Source: Flavobacteriaceae bacterium (lineage in GTDB: Bacteria; Bacteroidota; Bacteroidia; Flavobacteriales; Flavobacteriaceae). From it: 64,000 nt of DNA. The first letter of the stretch is position 1, and the number at the start of each line of letters is the position of its first letter. The stretch spans positions 124,001-188,000 of the forward strand of contig JAQWJJ010000007.1 in NCBI GenBank assembly GCA_029248405.1, in the 5' to 3' direction. This document shows, piece after piece, positions 2-18,306 of this stretch. Under the pieces are notes generated by a model. That model saw only the letters and a list, made by a program, of their open reading frames with translations. It searched no databases and was not told the origin of the DNA. A program made the translations under genes and the position numbers.

Positions 2-601
2 ACCGAGATCAAATTCGCCGCTGACGGTGAAATTTTGGTCAAAGGGCCTCAAATCATGATGGGTTATTATAAAGATCCAGACTTGACCGCCGAAGTCATC
101 AAGGATGGCTATTTCCATACCGGGGACATTGGTGAAATGGACGCTGACGGCTTCCTCAAAATAACGGATCGAAAAAAAGAAATGTTCAAAACCAGCGGTG
201 GAAAATATATTGCACCACAGGTTCTTGAGAATGCCCTAAAGCAGTCGCGATTCATTGAGCAAGTCATGGTCATTGGAGAAAATCAAAAAATGCCAGCGGC
301 ACTCATTCAGCCAAATTTTGATTTCGTCAAAGATTGGGGGCAAAATAAGAAATATGATTTACCTACTGATAATCATGCCCTGAACCAACATCCTAAAGTT
401 GTGGCCAGAATACAAGAAGAAATAGACGGCTTTAACGCCCGATTTGGCAAGTGGGAACAAATTAAGCGCTTTGAACTCACACCAGAAGTTTGGAGTATAG
501 AACTCGGTCACCTCACCCCTACCATGAAGATGAAACGAAAAGTCATCCATCAACGCTATAGTGATTTAGTAGAAAAGATCTACGCCGACACAAGGGTTTA
601 A
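2..601 (+). CDS. Long-chain acyl-CoA synthetase (AMP-forming ligase), C-terminal part
   Basis: Partial gene; the reading frame is open to the left edge. It activates fatty acids to acyl-CoA, the entry step for the beta-oxidation genes that follow. Visible are the adenylate-forming core motif around YHTGDIGEMD, the hinge ITDRKKEMFKTSGGKYIAPQ with the GGK turn, and a C-terminal lid region ending in KMKRK, as in FadD-type ligases with AMP-binding and C-terminal domains. About 200 residues are present, so the N-terminal ATP-binding part lies outside the window. The family is clear; chain-length preference cannot be read from this fragment. Confidence 0.9.
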   Translation, partial: TEIKFAADGEILVKGPQIMMGYYKDPDLTAEVIKDGYFHTGDIGEMDADGFLKITDRKKEMFKTSGGKYIAPQVLENALKQSRFIEQVMVIGENQKMPAALIQPNFDFVKDWGQNKKYDLPTDNHALNQHPKVVARIQEEIDGFNARFGKWEQIKRFELTPEVWSIELGHLTPTMKMKRKVIHQRYSDLVEKIYADTRV

Positions 602-645: not shown

Positions 646-673
646 ATATTTATTATGCACGCATAATAAATAT
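646..673. promoter_or_regulatory. Perfect 28-bp palindrome, candidate MarR operator
   Basis: Left arm ATATTTATTATGC (646-658), two-base centre AC (659-660), right arm GCATAATAAATAT (661-673). All 13 base pairs match. It ends two bases before a TACCTTTA -7-like box and covers the -33 region of the MarR gene at 690. MarR dimers typically bind palindromes of this sort close to their own promoters. The palindrome is seen directly; the operator role is inferred. Confidence 0.6.
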
Positions 674-675
674 TG

Positions 676-683
676 TACCTTTA
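676..683 (+). promoter_or_regulatory. -7 box of the MarR/fad promoter
   Basis: TACCTTTA matches the Bacteroidota -7 element TAnnTTTG at all but the last base and lies six bases before the ATG at 690. TATG at 654-657, 18 bases upstream, may act as a weak -33 element. This short spacing also supports 690 rather than the GTG at 642 as the start. Confidence 0.4.
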
Positions 684-689
684 CAATTG

Positions 690-1130
690 ATGAAAGCAAA
701 AACTATAGACCACATACTCCGTACGGTTTGGATTTCTGTATCCAAAATGTACCACGAAGAAGCGCTAAAAAAGGAAAGTACCATGGCCACTGGTTTTACC
801 CTGATCAGTATCGATCCGGAATACGGCACATCATCTATGGCTTTGGGCCCAAAAATGGGGATGGAAGCCACGAGTTTGTCGCGCACCCTTAAATCAATGG
901 AGTCGAAAGGACTCATTCAGCGCAAACCGAATCCCGAAGACGGACGTGGTGTCATCATACACTTGACTGAATTTGGCCGAAGTATGCGCAACTTTTCAAA
1001 AGAAATCGTCATTGGCTTTGACCAAAAGGTACGACAGGCCATCACACAAGAAGAACTAGAAACATTCAACAGAGTCGCACAAACCATAATGGATTTGGCG
1101 CAATCTAATCAACCCTTCATCAAAAAATAA
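690..1130 (+). CDS. MarR family transcriptional regulator of the fad block
   Basis: A 146-residue MarR protein. The winged helix-turn-helix spans roughly residues 35-100: recognition helix near 55-72 (MGMEATSLSRTLKSM) and wing at 81-96 (NPEDGRGVIIHLTEFG), flanked by dimerisation helices. It lies between an acyl-CoA ligase and the FadN gene, only three bases upstream of the latter, so it very probably controls fatty-acid oxidation, with an acyl-CoA as plausible ligand (inference). The ATG at 690 is preferred to the in-frame GTG at 642, because the upstream codons overlap the palindrome and promoter. A stretch of small regulators of this type is typical in front of Bacteroidota fad genes. Confidence 0.85.
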   Translation: MKAKTIDHILRTVWISVSKMYHEEALKKESTMATGFTLISIDPEYGTSSMALGPKMGMEATSLSRTLKSMESKGLIQRKPNPEDGRGVIIHLTEFGRSMRNFSKEIVIGFDQKVRQAITQEELETFNRVAQTIMDLAQSNQPFIKK

Positions 1131-1133
1131 CAC

Positions 1134-3545
1134 ATGAAGCGACCAATCAAAAGAATAAAAAATGTTGCAGTCATAGGGTCTGGCATTATGGGTAGTGCCA
1201 TTGCCTGTCATTTTGCCAACATAGGTGTGTCTGTGCTGCTTCTGGATATCGCGCCAAATGAACTAACAGAAATTGAGGCCAGTAAAGGCCTTAGCTTAGA
1301 GCATCGGTCGGTCCAAAATCGCATCGTCAATCAGGCTTTAGCAAAATGCATTAAATCAAATCCCAGTCCCCTTTATCACAAATCTTACGCACAACGCATC
1401 ACTACAGGGAACCTCAAGACAGATTTATCCAAAATCAAATCAGTCGACTGGATCATTGAGGTCGTCGTCGAGCGATTGGACATCAAGAAAAAAGTGTTTG
1501 AACAAATCGAGGAATACCGCGAGCCTGGGACATTAGTCAGTTCTAATACATCAGGAATCCCCATCCACCTTATGGCTGAAGGCCGCAGTGAAGATTTCCA
1601 AAAACATTTTTGTGGCACACACTTCTTTAATCCTCCACGCTATCTCAAGCTACTGGAATTGATTCCTGGCCCCCTAACCGATCCTGAAGTGGTGTCCTAT
1701 CTCGAGGAATATGGCAGTAAGTACCTCGGCAAAACCACAATTATTGCCCGAGACACCCCTGCATTTATAGGCAACAGAATTGGTATTTTTGGGATCCAAA
1801 GTCTTTTTCACCAAATGAATGCTTTAGGCCTCACGATTGAGCAGGTGGATAAGCTTACCGGACCAGTAATCGGTCGCCCTAAAAGCGCAACATTCAGAAC
1901 AGTTGATGTGGTTGGCCTAGACACCCTGGCGCACGTCGCTGAAGGCATTTATGACAATTGTCCGGACGATCAGGCTCACGAGCTATTCCAGCATACAGAT
2001 TTTGTCCGAAAGATGTTGGATCAAAATTGGTTAGGCAGTAAGACGGGCCAGGGCTTTTATAAAAAGATGACTAAAGACGGAAAAAGTGAAATCCACGCGC
2101 TCAACCTTGAGACCATGGAGTACCACCCATCAAAAAAGTCAAAATTCACCACTTTAGAAGCGACAAAGTCAATTGATAATGTCATCGATCGATTCCCAAT
2201 ATTGGTCAATGGAACAGATAAGGCCGGTGAATTTTATAGAGCCAACTTTGGGGCACTCTTCCATTATGTCAGCCTCAAGGTTGGCGAAATAACGGATGAT
2301 CTTTACAAGATCGACGATGCCATGAAAGCTGGATTTGGCTGGTCACATGGGCCCTTTGATATTTGGGACGCCATAGGTCTTGACGAAGGCTTGGCGCTCA
2401 TTAAATCTCTTGGACACACCCCTGCCCCATGGCTCACAGCGCTTTCCAAAGCAGACAAGCCACAGTTTTATGCTTTAAATGACGGCAAAAGGTTTTATTA
2501 TGACTTGACAAAAGCCAAGCATGTTTTGATACCTGGTCAAAATGCCATTCTGGTCTTGGATCATATTGATCAGTCGCATGAGCTCTTCAGAAATTCAGGT
2601 GTTGTCATTCATGATTTGGGTGACGGCATCATCAACTGTGGATTTCATAGTAAAATGAATAGTATTGGCGGTGATGTATTGGAAGGCATTAACAAAGCCG
2701 TAGACATAGCCGAGCGCCATTACGACGGACTTGTCATTGGCAATCAAGGTGCCAATTTTTCTGTTGGCGCCAATATTGGCATGATTTTCATGATGGCGGT
2801 CGAGCAAGAATATGACGAGCTCAATGCAGCGATCAAATACTTTCAAGATACGGTCATGAGGCTGCGTTATTCTAGCATCCCAACAGTTATGGCACCCCAT
2901 GGCTTGACTCTAGGAGGAGGTTGTGAACTGACCTTGCATGCCGACCGCGTAGTGGCCGCAGCAGAAAGTTACATCGGGCTGGTAGAATTTGGTGTCGGAG
3001 TCATTCCTGGTGGTGGGGGCAGCAAAGAAATGACCTTAAGAGCCTCTGACGGCTATCAGAAAAATGATGTCGAACTCAACCGACTTCAAGAATATTTCTT
3101 GACCATAGGCATGGCAAAAGTCGCGACCTCTGCGCAAGAAGCTTTTGATCTTGACATACTTAAAAAAGGCAAAGATGTAGTAGTGGTCAACAAAGATCGC
3201 CAAATAGCCATAGCCAAGACAACGGCCCGTCTAATGGCGGATCAAGGCTATACGCAACCGACAATGCGCCAAGACATCAAAGTTCTGGGCAAGCAAGCAC
3301 TGGGCATGTTTCTAGTGGGCACCAACGCCATGAAGGCAGGACACTACATCAGTGATCACGATCTGAAGATTGCCAATAAATTGGCCTATGTTATGGCTGG
3401 AGGAGATTTATCAGAACCAACCTTGGTGAGTGAACAATACCTGCTGGACCTGGAACGCGAAGCATTTTTAAGTCTTTGTGGAGAGCGAAAAACTCTTGAA
3501 CGACTCCAACACATGATCCGCACGGGAAAGCCTTTGCGTAATTAA
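1134..3545 (+). CDS. fadN: 3-hydroxyacyl-CoA dehydrogenase / enoyl-CoA hydratase (FadN type)
   Basis: A bifunctional beta-oxidation enzyme of 803 residues. The N-terminal NAD-binding Rossmann domain has VIGSGIMG (G15-G20). The 3-hydroxyacyl-CoA dehydrogenase C-terminal domains follow with GNRIG and WSHGPFDIWDAIG. The crotonase domain is at the C-terminus, with the two expected glutamates at E598 (GGGCE) and E618 (VEFGVGVIPGGGG). Dehydrogenase-first order is that of FadN, not of FadB. Both active sites look intact. It is followed 49 bases later by the thiolase gene, and the two together perform steps 2-4 of the cycle on acyl-CoA in the cytoplasm. Confidence 0.93.
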   Translation: MKRPIKRIKNVAVIGSGIMGSAIACHFANIGVSVLLLDIAPNELTEIEASKGLSLEHRSVQNRIVNQALAKCIKSNPSPLYHKSYAQRITTGNLKTDLSKIKSVDWIIEVVVERLDIKKKVFEQIEEYREPGTLVSSNTSGIPIHLMAEGRSEDFQKHFCGTHFFNPPRYLKLLELIPGPLTDPEVVSYLEEYGSKYLGKTTIIARDTPAFIGNRIGIFGIQSLFHQMNALGLTIEQVDKLTGPVIGRPKSATFRTVDVVGLDTLAHVAEGIYDNCPDDQAHELFQHTDFVRKMLDQNWLGSKTGQGFYKKMTKDGKSEIHALNLETMEYHPSKKSKFTTLEATKSIDNVIDRFPILVNGTDKAGEFYRANFGALFHYVSLKVGEITDDLYKIDDAMKAGFGWSHGPFDIWDAIGLDEGLALIKSLGHTPAPWLTALSKADKPQFYALNDGKRFYYDLTKAKHVLIPGQNAILVLDHIDQSHELFRNSGVVIHDLGDGIINCGFHSKMNSIGGDVLEGINKAVDIAERHYDGLVIGNQGANFSVGANIGMIFMMAVEQEYDELNAAIKYFQDTVMRLRYSSIPTVMAPHGLTLGGGCELTLHADRVVAAAESYIGLVEFGVGVIPGGGGSKEMTLRASDGYQKNDVELNRLQEYFLTIGMAKVATSAQEAFDLDILKKGKDVVVVNKDRQIAIAKTTARLMADQGYTQPTMRQDIKVLGKQALGMFLVGTNAMKAGHYISDHDLKIANKLAYVMAGGDLSEPTLVSEQYLLDLEREAFLSLCGERKTLERLQHMIRTGKPLRN

Positions 3546-3594: not shown

Positions 3595-4785
3595 ATGACT
3601 ACTGCATATATTGTTAAAGCCTACCGCACCGCCGTGGGTAAAGCACCTAAAGGATTGTTTCGATTCAAACGGCCAGATGAGCTCGCTGCAGAAACCATCG
3701 AATACATGATGACCCAATTGCCCGAACTCGAGAAGCACCGAATTGACGATGTGATGGTGGGCAATGCCATGCCAGAAGCAGAGCAGGGGCTCAATATGGC
3801 GCGGCTCATCTCCCTTATGGGACTAAAGACGGAAGAAGTACCTGGTGTCACAGTCAATCGCTACTGTGCCTCGGGACTGGAAACAATTGCTATGGCTACA
3901 GCAAAAATTCAAAGCGGCATGGCCGATTGTATCATAGCAGGAGGAGCCGAAAGCATGAGTTTTATTCCAATGGGAGGTTATAAACCCTCACCGGATTATG
4001 CGATTGTCGCACAAGGCCATGAAGATTATTACTGGGGTATGGGCCTCACGGCAGAAGCGGTGGCTAAAGAATATAACGTCAGCCGCGAAGACCAAGACGC
4101 CTTTGCGTTCCACTCACACCAAAAGGCCATCGCCGCGCAACAAACCAACCGATTTCAAAACCAAATTGTTCCGATTAACATCACAGAGACGTATTTGGAT
4201 GAGAATGGACATAAACAAAATAAGCAATATACAGTGGATCGTGATGAGGGGCCGCGGCAAGATACGTCTCTCGAGGCCCTGGCCAAGTTGAGACCAGTAT
4301 TTGCCAATGGCGGCAGTGTTACAGCGGGGAATGCCTCTCAGATGAGCGATGGTGCTGCCTTTGTGATTGTGATGAGTGAAGCCATGATGCAATCACTTAA
4401 CCTCTCCCCCATTGCCCGAATGGTCAATTATGCTGCTGTAGGAGTAGCGCCAAGAATAATGGGTATAGGACCGGTTAAAGCGATACCCAAAGCATTAGAA
4501 AAATCTGGCATCACAAAAAACGACCTCAAATTAATAGAATTAAATGAGGCCTTCGCCTCACAGTCATTGGCGGTCATCAGAGCCTTAAATTTAGACCCTG
4601 ATATAGTGAATGTCAATGGTGGAGCCATTGCACTGGGCCACCCATTAGGATGTACGGGCACCAAGTTGTCGGTACAGCTTTTTGACGAAATGCGCCAACG
4701 CAGTCAACAAGGCGGATATGGTTTAGTGACCATGTGCGTCGGCACAGGCCAAGGTGCTGCTGGTATTTTTGAATTTTTAAATTGA
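3595..4785 (+). CDS. fadA: Acetyl-CoA C-acyltransferase (3-ketoacyl-CoA thiolase)
   Basis: A 396-residue thiolase that cleaves 3-ketoacyl-CoA to acetyl-CoA and a shortened acyl-CoA. All catalytic motifs are present: nucleophilic C91 in NRYCASG, the histidine in GHPLGCTG, and the second cysteine in CVGTGQG. The ATG at 3595 is taken as the start; an in-frame TTG lies two codons earlier. It is the partner of the preceding FadN enzyme and part of the fad block. Confidence 0.94.
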   Translation: MTTAYIVKAYRTAVGKAPKGLFRFKRPDELAAETIEYMMTQLPELEKHRIDDVMVGNAMPEAEQGLNMARLISLMGLKTEEVPGVTVNRYCASGLETIAMATAKIQSGMADCIIAGGAESMSFIPMGGYKPSPDYAIVAQGHEDYYWGMGLTAEAVAKEYNVSREDQDAFAFHSHQKAIAAQQTNRFQNQIVPINITETYLDENGHKQNKQYTVDRDEGPRQDTSLEALAKLRPVFANGGSVTAGNASQMSDGAAFVIVMSEAMMQSLNLSPIARMVNYAAVGVAPRIMGIGPVKAIPKALEKSGITKNDLKLIELNEAFASQSLAVIRALNLDPDIVNVNGGAIALGHPLGCTGTKLSVQLFDEMRQRSQQGGYGLVTMCVGTGQGAAGIFEFLN

Positions 4786-4828: not shown

Positions 4829-6634
4829 ATGGAACAGACCCCAACCCAAGATAACTTATTGCGTGGCGGACAATTTTTAGTCCAAGCGACGCCATGTGAT
4901 CACATTTTTACTCCAGAAGATTTCTCAGAAGAACAGCGCATGATGATTGAGTCTGTTCAGGAGTTCGTTGATCGAGAGATTTGGCCCAAAAAGGCCCAAT
5001 TCGAACAAAAAGATTATGCCCTTACACTCGATGTGATGAAAAAAATCGGAGAAATGGGACTGCTCGGTATTGCCGTACCAGAGGAATACGGTGGATTGGG
5101 CATGGGTTTTGTCACCACAATGCTCGTGTGTGATTACATCAGTGGTGCCACCGGATCTATCGCGACTGCATTTGGTGCCCATACAGGGATCGGCACCATG
5201 CCCATAACCCTTTACGGCAATGAAACACAAAAGCAAAAATACATCCCGAAACTGGCCTCCGGTGAATGGTTTGGCGCCTACTGCCTCACGGAACCAGGTG
5301 CAGGCAGCGACGCCAATAGTGGAAAGACAAAAGCAGTCTTGAGTGAAGATGGGACGCATTACCTCATTTCAGGACAAAAAATGTGGATCTCAAATGCTGG
5401 TTTCTGTCAACTTTTTATCGTCTTTGCGCGAATTGAAGACGACAAGAACATCACAGGTTTTATCGTGGAAAATGATCCCAACAATGGGATCACCATGGGC
5501 GACGAAGAGCACAAGCTGGGCATCCATTCATCTTCGACACGACAGGTCTTTTTTAACCAAACTAGAGTCCCTATAGACAATATGCTCTCCCAGCGCCAAG
5601 AAGGCTTTAAAATTGCCATGAATGCACTTAATGTTGGCCGTATTAAACTAGCGGGCGCTTGTCTGGATGCCCAAAGAAGAATCATATCCAATGCTGTGGG
5701 ATATGCCAATCAGCGGGTACAATTCAAAACACCCATCGCCCAATTTGGAGCCATTAAGTCAAAATTGGCAGAAATGGCAAGTGCTGCTTTTGTCGACGAA
5801 AGTGCAACCTATCGTGCATCTAAAAATATCGAAGACCGAATTACCTTGAGGCGACAAGCCGGAAATACTCACCAAGAGGCAGAACTAAAGGGCGTTGAAG
5901 AATATGCCATAGAATGTTCTATTTTGAAAGTCGCTGTGTCTGAAAGTGCACAACATTGCGCAGACGAGGGCATTCAAATCTATGGCGGCATGGGATTCAG
6001 TGCAGATACCCCAATGGAGTCGGCTTGGAGAGATGCCCGAATCACGAGGATTTACGAAGGCACCAATGAAATCAACAGAATGCTCTGTGTCGGCATGCTC
6101 TTGAAAAAGGCCATGAAAGGTCATGTAGATTTATTAGGTCCTGCCATGGCTGTTGCTCAAGAGCTCACAGGAATACCGTCTTTTGAAACACCTGATTATT
6201 CTGAGCCATTTTCGGAAGAAAAAGTCATCATTGACCATCTGAAAAAGGTGTTTTTAATGGTCTCTGGACAAGCCGTTCAAAAATACGGGCCGGATTTGGA
6301 GGAACACCAACAACTTTTACTCGCCGCATCAGACATCATGATCAACATCTATATGGCCGAAAGCGGGCTCCTTAGAGCAGAAAAAACCATGAAGTCAGAT
6401 CCTGAAAAAGGACAAAATCAGATGGAAATGGCCCAGCTCTATCTCTACCATGCCGTAGACAAAATCATTCTAAAAGCCAAAGAAGGCATTATTAGTTTTT
6501 CGGAAGGAGACGAACAGCGCATGATGCTTATGGGACTCAAGAGATTCACAAAATATGTGCACCACCCCAACATTATCGCGTTGCGTGTATCCATAGCAGA
6601 TAAGGTTATTGCCGCTAACCATTATCCTTTTTGA
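4829..6634 (+). CDS. Acyl-CoA dehydrogenase (601-residue type)
   Basis: A FAD enzyme for the first, oxidative step of beta-oxidation. Acyl-CoA dehydrogenase N, middle and C domains occupy about residues 30-420: FAD/substrate motif YCLTEPGAGSDA, then EEHKLGIHSSSTRQVFF, then the catalytic glutamate E410 in IYEGTNEINRM. A further ~180-residue helical extension is found in VLCAD-like enzymes and is usual for this Bacteroidota group. Its 3' end overlaps the convergent galM gene by 13 bases. With the ligase, FadN and thiolase it makes a complete saturated fatty-acid degradation set. Confidence 0.93.
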   Translation: MEQTPTQDNLLRGGQFLVQATPCDHIFTPEDFSEEQRMMIESVQEFVDREIWPKKAQFEQKDYALTLDVMKKIGEMGLLGIAVPEEYGGLGMGFVTTMLVCDYISGATGSIATAFGAHTGIGTMPITLYGNETQKQKYIPKLASGEWFGAYCLTEPGAGSDANSGKTKAVLSEDGTHYLISGQKMWISNAGFCQLFIVFARIEDDKNITGFIVENDPNNGITMGDEEHKLGIHSSSTRQVFFNQTRVPIDNMLSQRQEGFKIAMNALNVGRIKLAGACLDAQRRIISNAVGYANQRVQFKTPIAQFGAIKSKLAEMASAAFVDESATYRASKNIEDRITLRRQAGNTHQEAELKGVEEYAIECSILKVAVSESAQHCADEGIQIYGGMGFSADTPMESAWRDARITRIYEGTNEINRMLCVGMLLKKAMKGHVDLLGPAMAVAQELTGIPSFETPDYSEPFSEEKVIIDHLKKVFLMVSGQAVQKYGPDLEEHQQLLLAASDIMINIYMAESGLLRAEKTMKSDPEKGQNQMEMAQLYLYHAVDKIILKAKEGIISFSEGDEQRMMLMGLKRFTKYVHHPNIIALRVSIADKVIAANHYPF

Positions 6635-18273: not shown

Positions 18274-18306
18274 AAAAAAACCCACAGGAATCCTGTGGGT
18301 TTTTTG
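18274..18306. terminator. Bidirectional terminator
   Basis: Stem CCCACAGG, loop AAT, CCTGTGGG, flanked by six A on the left and six T on the right, so it works for both the hypothetical gene (plus) and the subtilase gene (minus). Confidence 0.9.

Follow-up and report, generated by a model that had tools for sequence, protein, structure and literature searches.

Whether a perfect palindrome at the promoter of a marR gene serves the regulator encoded beside it, and what that regulator would control, is the question raised by a fatty-acid degradation locus of a Flavobacteriaceae bacterium. The locus lies in the window, which here means the whole stretch of 64,000 nucleotides that was analyzed. 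Its features are listed in Table 1. To our knowledge, the regulation of fatty-acid catabolism in Bacteroidota has been little described. The Flavobacteriaceae are major degraders in marine, soil, and freshwater settings. In Flavobacterium psychrophilum, fish mucus and plasma strongly induced the beta-oxidation genes, and the passage of the paper that reports this induction names no regulator for it (PMC9723704).

Table 1. Positions of the features at the marR-fad locus, counted from the first nucleotide of the window
Feature	Position	Strand	Description
Long-chain acyl-CoA ligase, C-terminal part	2..601	+	Upstream of marR
Operator palindrome (putative)	646..673	.	28 bp, 13-bp arms, AC center
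Conserved operator unit TAYTATGCRYGCATARTA	651..668	.	18 bp; at least 16 of 18 positions kept in 108 of 110 marR upstreams
Core TATGC-AC-GCATA	654..665	.	Ten TATGC/GCATA positions 100% invariant in 108 loci
-7 promoter box TACCTTTA	676..683	+	Bacteroidota TAnnTTTG type, read from sequence
marR	690..1130	+	MarR-family winged-helix regulator, 146 aa
fadN	1134..3545	+	3-Hydroxyacyl-CoA dehydrogenase/enoyl-CoA hydratase
fadA	3595..4785	+	Acetyl-CoA C-acyltransferase
fadE-like acyl-CoA dehydrogenase	4829..6634	+	Exceeds the NCBIfam cut-off of NF058590 (Bacillus-type FadE)

The palindrome and the marR promoter

The palindrome, ATATTTATTATGC-AC-GCATAATAAATAT, was complementary at 13 of 13 arm positions, exactly as a preliminary description of this DNA had claimed. 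The range of 646 to 690 given there spans the palindrome, the -7 box, and the start codon, but the palindrome itself ends at 673. Among the near-contiguous palindromes of the window, it ranked second by length. When the window was resampled 60 times with a first-order Markov model, the maximum arm length ranged from 8 to 12 bp and never reached 13 bp. The full 28-mer was unique both in the window and in the 1.92-Mb genome, even with up to three mismatches allowed.

The -7 box begins 2 bp beyond the end of the palindrome, and the two elements abut, as had been described. According to a passage of PMC9723704, the TAnnTTTG element occupies positions -12 to -5 in F. psychrophilum. From this placement, we infer that marR transcription starts at about position 688. 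Such a start would put the operator at about -42 to -15 and would leave the marR mRNA nearly leaderless.

The marR product matched the Pfam MarR family (PF01047; E = 5.6e-10), scoring 39.4 bits where the cut-off is 24.6. Its AlphaFold2 model had a pLDDT of 91, and the best fold matches in the PDB were MarR proteins, with a TM-score of up to 0.81 and with DNA complexes of MepR, MarR, SlyA, and FabT among them. The protein showed no GntR or TetR domain and matched only MarR and related winged-helix families. By the Pfam match and the predicted structure, the regulator of the window is a plain MarR protein. Three bases separate the marR stop codon from the fadN start codon, and fadA and the acyl-CoA dehydrogenase gene follow, which agrees with the gene order given earlier. 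This order was conserved in near relatives, where marR was followed by fadN in 79/79 testable loci, then by fadA in 76/76 and by fadE in 74/74, and the ligase gene was located upstream of marR in 66/76 relatives. Across Bacteroidia genomes in which both genes could be placed, fadN came directly after marR in 87 of 94.

Conservation of the site upstream of marR

A scan of genome contigs yielded 80 marR loci, mostly from Flavobacteriaceae, which together with the relatives' genomes gave 110 distinct upstream regions. The core TATGCNNGCATA was present upstream of marR in 108 of these 110 distinct orthologous loci, and the two loci without the site lay at contig ends. In the 108 loci, the invariant TATGC and GCATA halves were flanked by TAY and RTA, respectively, and by A/T runs. 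In 92 of these upstream regions, a TAnnTTTG-type box started 7 to 9 bp past the 18-mer (110 regions in all), and the alignment columns beyond the site and the -7 box carried little information.

The site was also conserved in distant members of the class. We fetched 40 marR upstream regions from distant Bacteroidia, mostly chosen for the absence of the full 18-mer. The exact core was found within 150 bp upstream of marR in 33 of the 40 (about 0.006 expected), and these 33 showed no extra core copy between 150 and 600 bp. Core variants with one or two positions changed were found in five others, and the remaining two contained nothing resembling the core. GC-rich genomes kept the core in the form GTATGCATGCATAC. 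The distant MarR proteins fetched with their downstream genes were 31 to 45% identical to the window MarR, and the fadN-fadA-fadE order was mostly retained beside them. Within a phylum sample of 198 genomes, all 36 MarR matches fell in the class Bacteroidia, and on this sample the regulator appears to be confined to that class. Judged from these alignments, the operator is conserved to the class level, and the palindrome is very probably an operator. The preliminary description had made conservation in relatives one test of its proposal, and on this point it was borne out.

The occurrence of the motif was then compared with that of the regulator gene in a class sample of 197 Bacteroidia genomes, 98 of which matched the MarR profile. 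The class-wide search accepted copies of the 18-mer with no more than a single mismatch. The motif was present in 38 of the 98 genomes with marR and in 5 of the 99 without it (p = 3e-9), and among genomes with fadN alone it was present in 37 of 97 with marR and 2 of 63 without (p = 6e-8); both p values are optimistic because related genomes were treated as independent and phylogeny was ignored. The comparison among fadN-carrying genomes indicates that the motif tracks the regulator and not the pathway. The 18-mer was found in just 38 of the 98 marR genomes because its flanks drift, and the core was kept in most of those examined.

Some marR promoters carried more than one copy. At six loci, a second operator copy was located about 22 to 30 bp upstream, and these tandem operators were mostly from Winogradskyella- and Psychroserpens-like genomes. 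In one family (L226, L227), two operator copies were 83 bp apart.

Other sites and the candidate regulon

We also searched for the site away from marR. When one mismatch was tolerated, 45 of 60 relatives had between 1 and 7 copies of the 18-mer, and a reversed-pattern control gave no match in the 60 relatives or in the 197 class genomes. The 794 kb surrounding 80 marR genes contained 90 cores, of which 87 were located at the marR promoter and three at fadD. The window genome (1.9 Mb) contained exactly two exact cores, at the marR-fad and etfB promoters; from base composition, about two copies of the 12-bp core would be expected in a sequence of that length. Weak matches in this genome, with two or three mismatches, came close to the background given by the reversed pattern. 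The etfB gene fits the pathway as a second target, because the electron-transfer flavoprotein takes the electrons of acyl-CoA dehydrogenase. An additional site had been anticipated at the acyl-CoA ligase gene. It was absent from the window genome but was found upstream of fadD in three Aquimarina-like genomes.

Other sites were read in 80 further stretches fetched from relatives. They were located before etfB (27 sites, usually with a pyruvate-dehydrogenase E1-beta gene facing the other way), nitronate-monooxygenase (NMO)-like genes (12 sites), genes for TonB-dependent receptors of about 800 aa (11 sites, mostly adjoining glmS), KASIII-like genes (4 sites), FadL/OmpP1 porin genes (3 sites), thioesterase genes (3 sites), GDSL lipase genes (2 sites), FabH genes (2 sites), and fadN genes unlinked to marR (2 sites), with one site each before a patatin gene and an esterase gene. 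Intragenic sites were very few, with one clear case; nearly all of the sites lay in promoters, and many of these promoters belonged to lipid-catabolic genes. In distant Bacteroidia, sites preceded other acyl-CoA dehydrogenase genes and a thiolase gene (five loci). As read from these promoters, one site is shared by several unlinked genes, which together make up a putative dispersed regulon for fatty-acid catabolism. The idea of a simple, self-regulated switch held in that a conserved site lies at the regulator's own promoter, but the sites mark a dispersed regulon and not a single operon.

With one operator so deeply conserved, the regulon can be read off the sequence in MarR-carrying Bacteroidia. 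The operator flags uncharacterized genes, such as those for the glmS-adjoining TonB receptor and for NMO-like and KASIII-like proteins, as probably involved in lipid use, and it provides a ready test system. We know of no tie between this TonB-dependent receptor and lipid uptake, and the glmS-adjoining receptor of 800 aa is a possible lipid-linked uptake system. The receptor sites were mostly without a recognizable -7 box just downstream.

Several smaller features were observed at these promoters. The operator at nine TonB receptor loci in Flavobacteriaceae had an AATT-type flank and was located about 80 bp before the start codon. Nine loci showed the operator in promoters of NMO-like flavoprotein genes. 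At five etfB loci, about 18 to 20 bp separated the operator from a downstream box of the form TAnnTTcG or TAnnTTTA. One genome carried copies of TATGCAAGCATA upstream of two neighboring paralogues with signal-peptide-like starts and of a similar gene elsewhere. These genes showed no visible lipid link, and the copies may be chance occurrences or a repurposed site.

Proposed mechanism, known systems, and alternatives

We propose that the palindrome is the operator of the adjoining MarR protein and that this protein is an acyl-CoA-responsive autorepressor of the fad operon and of unlinked lipid genes; we put the probability of this reading at about 0.86. The sequences show the site, its conservation, its promoter placement, its other targets, and its co-occurrence with marR. 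Binding by MarR, repression, and the acyl-CoA ligand belong to the proposed mechanism, which would operate as follows. A MarR dimer would read the dyad TATGC-NN-GCATA together with its AT-rich flanks, and the bound protein would extend over the promoter from the -33 region to the -7 box and exclude RNA polymerase. The site abuts the -7 box at marR, at unlinked fadN, and at several NMO-like promoters, and a dimer bound in this position would be expected to obstruct RNA polymerase. MarR would thereby repress marR as well as the downstream fadN, fadA, and fadE genes, and it would act at the unlinked copies, namely, etfBA in the window genome and, elsewhere, fadD and the genes for the FadL porin, thiolase, thioesterases, and other acyl-CoA dehydrogenases. 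Once fatty acids have entered the cell and been activated, an intermediate would free the repressor, and uptake, beta-oxidation, and electron transfer would be switched on together. This inducer would most likely be an acyl-CoA, since acyl-CoAs are both made and consumed by the products of the regulated genes, and a long-chain acyl-CoA is the favored candidate. The promoter arrangement is most simply read as repression of marR itself together with the fad genes.

The proposed system resembles several known regulators. The FadR protein of Bacillus subtilis is an acyl-CoA-responsive repressor of the TetR family that controls fadNAE, etfBA, and an acyl-CoA ligase gene. The two systems share a homologous fadN-fadA-fadE operon, and the window FadE passes the Bacillus-type FadE model; however, the window regulator is a MarR protein and heads the operon, and, as far as is known, the B. 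subtilis FadR operator differs in sequence from the window operator. The E. coli FadR is a GntR protein that represses fadL, fadD, fadBA, and fadE together and is relieved by acyl-CoA. It does the same job, but its protein family and operator are unrelated, and the second role of FadR in fatty-acid synthesis has no sign here. FabT of streptococci is a MarR protein that is autoregulated through a palindrome. In contrast to the window MarR, with its beta-oxidation context, FabT has a fab gene context and controls fatty-acid synthesis with acyl-ACP as the effector and another palindrome as the site. A FabT structure (6jbx) was among both the fold and sequence matches of the window MarR, but the two are distant, with 17 to 18% identity over the aligned fold. 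The FabT model was absent from the NCBIfam matches of the window MarR, which we do not regard as a FabT ortholog. CouR and HcaR are MarR repressors of catabolic operons, and CouR responds to a CoA thioester; they were found among the sequence matches (CouR, 6c28) and the fold matches (HcaR, 4rgr) but act on aromatic-acid pathways in Proteobacteria through other operators.

The preliminary description knew of no operator for this MarR group, and we likewise found no description of this operator, regulator, or regulon in the open-access papers searched, which is weak evidence of absence. We consider it probable that the sites represent an undescribed fatty-acid-degradation regulon across Bacteroidia, in which a single MarR repressor with a single operator word (TATGCNNGCATA) does the job of FadR and which includes a TonB-dependent receptor. 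On the comparisons above, the best reading of MarR is that of a FadR counterpart of Bacteroidia, neither GntR nor TetR. A MarR repressor with its operator is a known kind of system, and its conservation here is unusually wide and well supported.

Two alternatives concern the protein that acts at the site and its mode of action. MarR could be an activator, or it could repress marR-fad and activate etfBA from a site centered near -40. In the window genome and its closest relative, the etfB 18-mer is located 18 bp upstream of the box, compared with 7 to 9 bp at marR, a shift of about 10 bp or about one helical turn, and the etfB box in other genomes is often a weak TAnnTTcG. The shifted spacing might reflect a different mode of action and could mean activation at etfB. 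However, the sites that abut the -7 box are in the usual repressing position, and activators form a minority among MarR proteins; we regard activation as unlikely. The site could also belong to a different, unlinked fatty-acid regulator for which marR is merely one target. The spread of the site over many lipid genes would fit this view, as would two genomes that carry the motif, G046 with a weak MarR match and G022 with a weak or no match, although the G022 assembly is 84% complete. The site varies least at the promoter of marR itself, as autoregulation predicts, and it follows marR even among genomes with fadN. The motif matches that were read in marR-less class genomes were inside genes, at gene ends, or without fad context. 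We regard an unlinked regulator as quite improbable.

The other two alternatives deny that the palindrome is a protein-binding site. Acting as RNA, it would form a hairpin terminator or a leader structure, and the 13-bp arms do fold as a hairpin with a z-score of -2.9. The palindrome is upstream of the inferred transcription start, however, and has neither a U-tract nor a GC-rich stem. The flanking dyad positions showed no covariation, with C-A combinations in 33/108 loci and T-G in 20/108, as independence predicts, and this independent variation argues against an RNA hairpin. The hairpin or terminator reading was rejected on position and absent covariation, and we give it very little weight. 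A chance palindrome in AT-rich intergenic DNA has a negligible probability. The core alone is expected at about the number found in the window genome, but the 12-bp limit of the resampled arms and the regulon evidence oppose this view, and it was refuted by the conservation at marR, the class-level core, and the promoter placement of the cores.

The longest near-contiguous palindrome of the window, AAAAAACCCACAGGAATCCTGTGGGTTTTTT at 18275 to 18305, has perfect 15-bp arms and a GC-rich stem, with an A run on one side and a T run on the other; it looks like a bidirectional intrinsic terminator.
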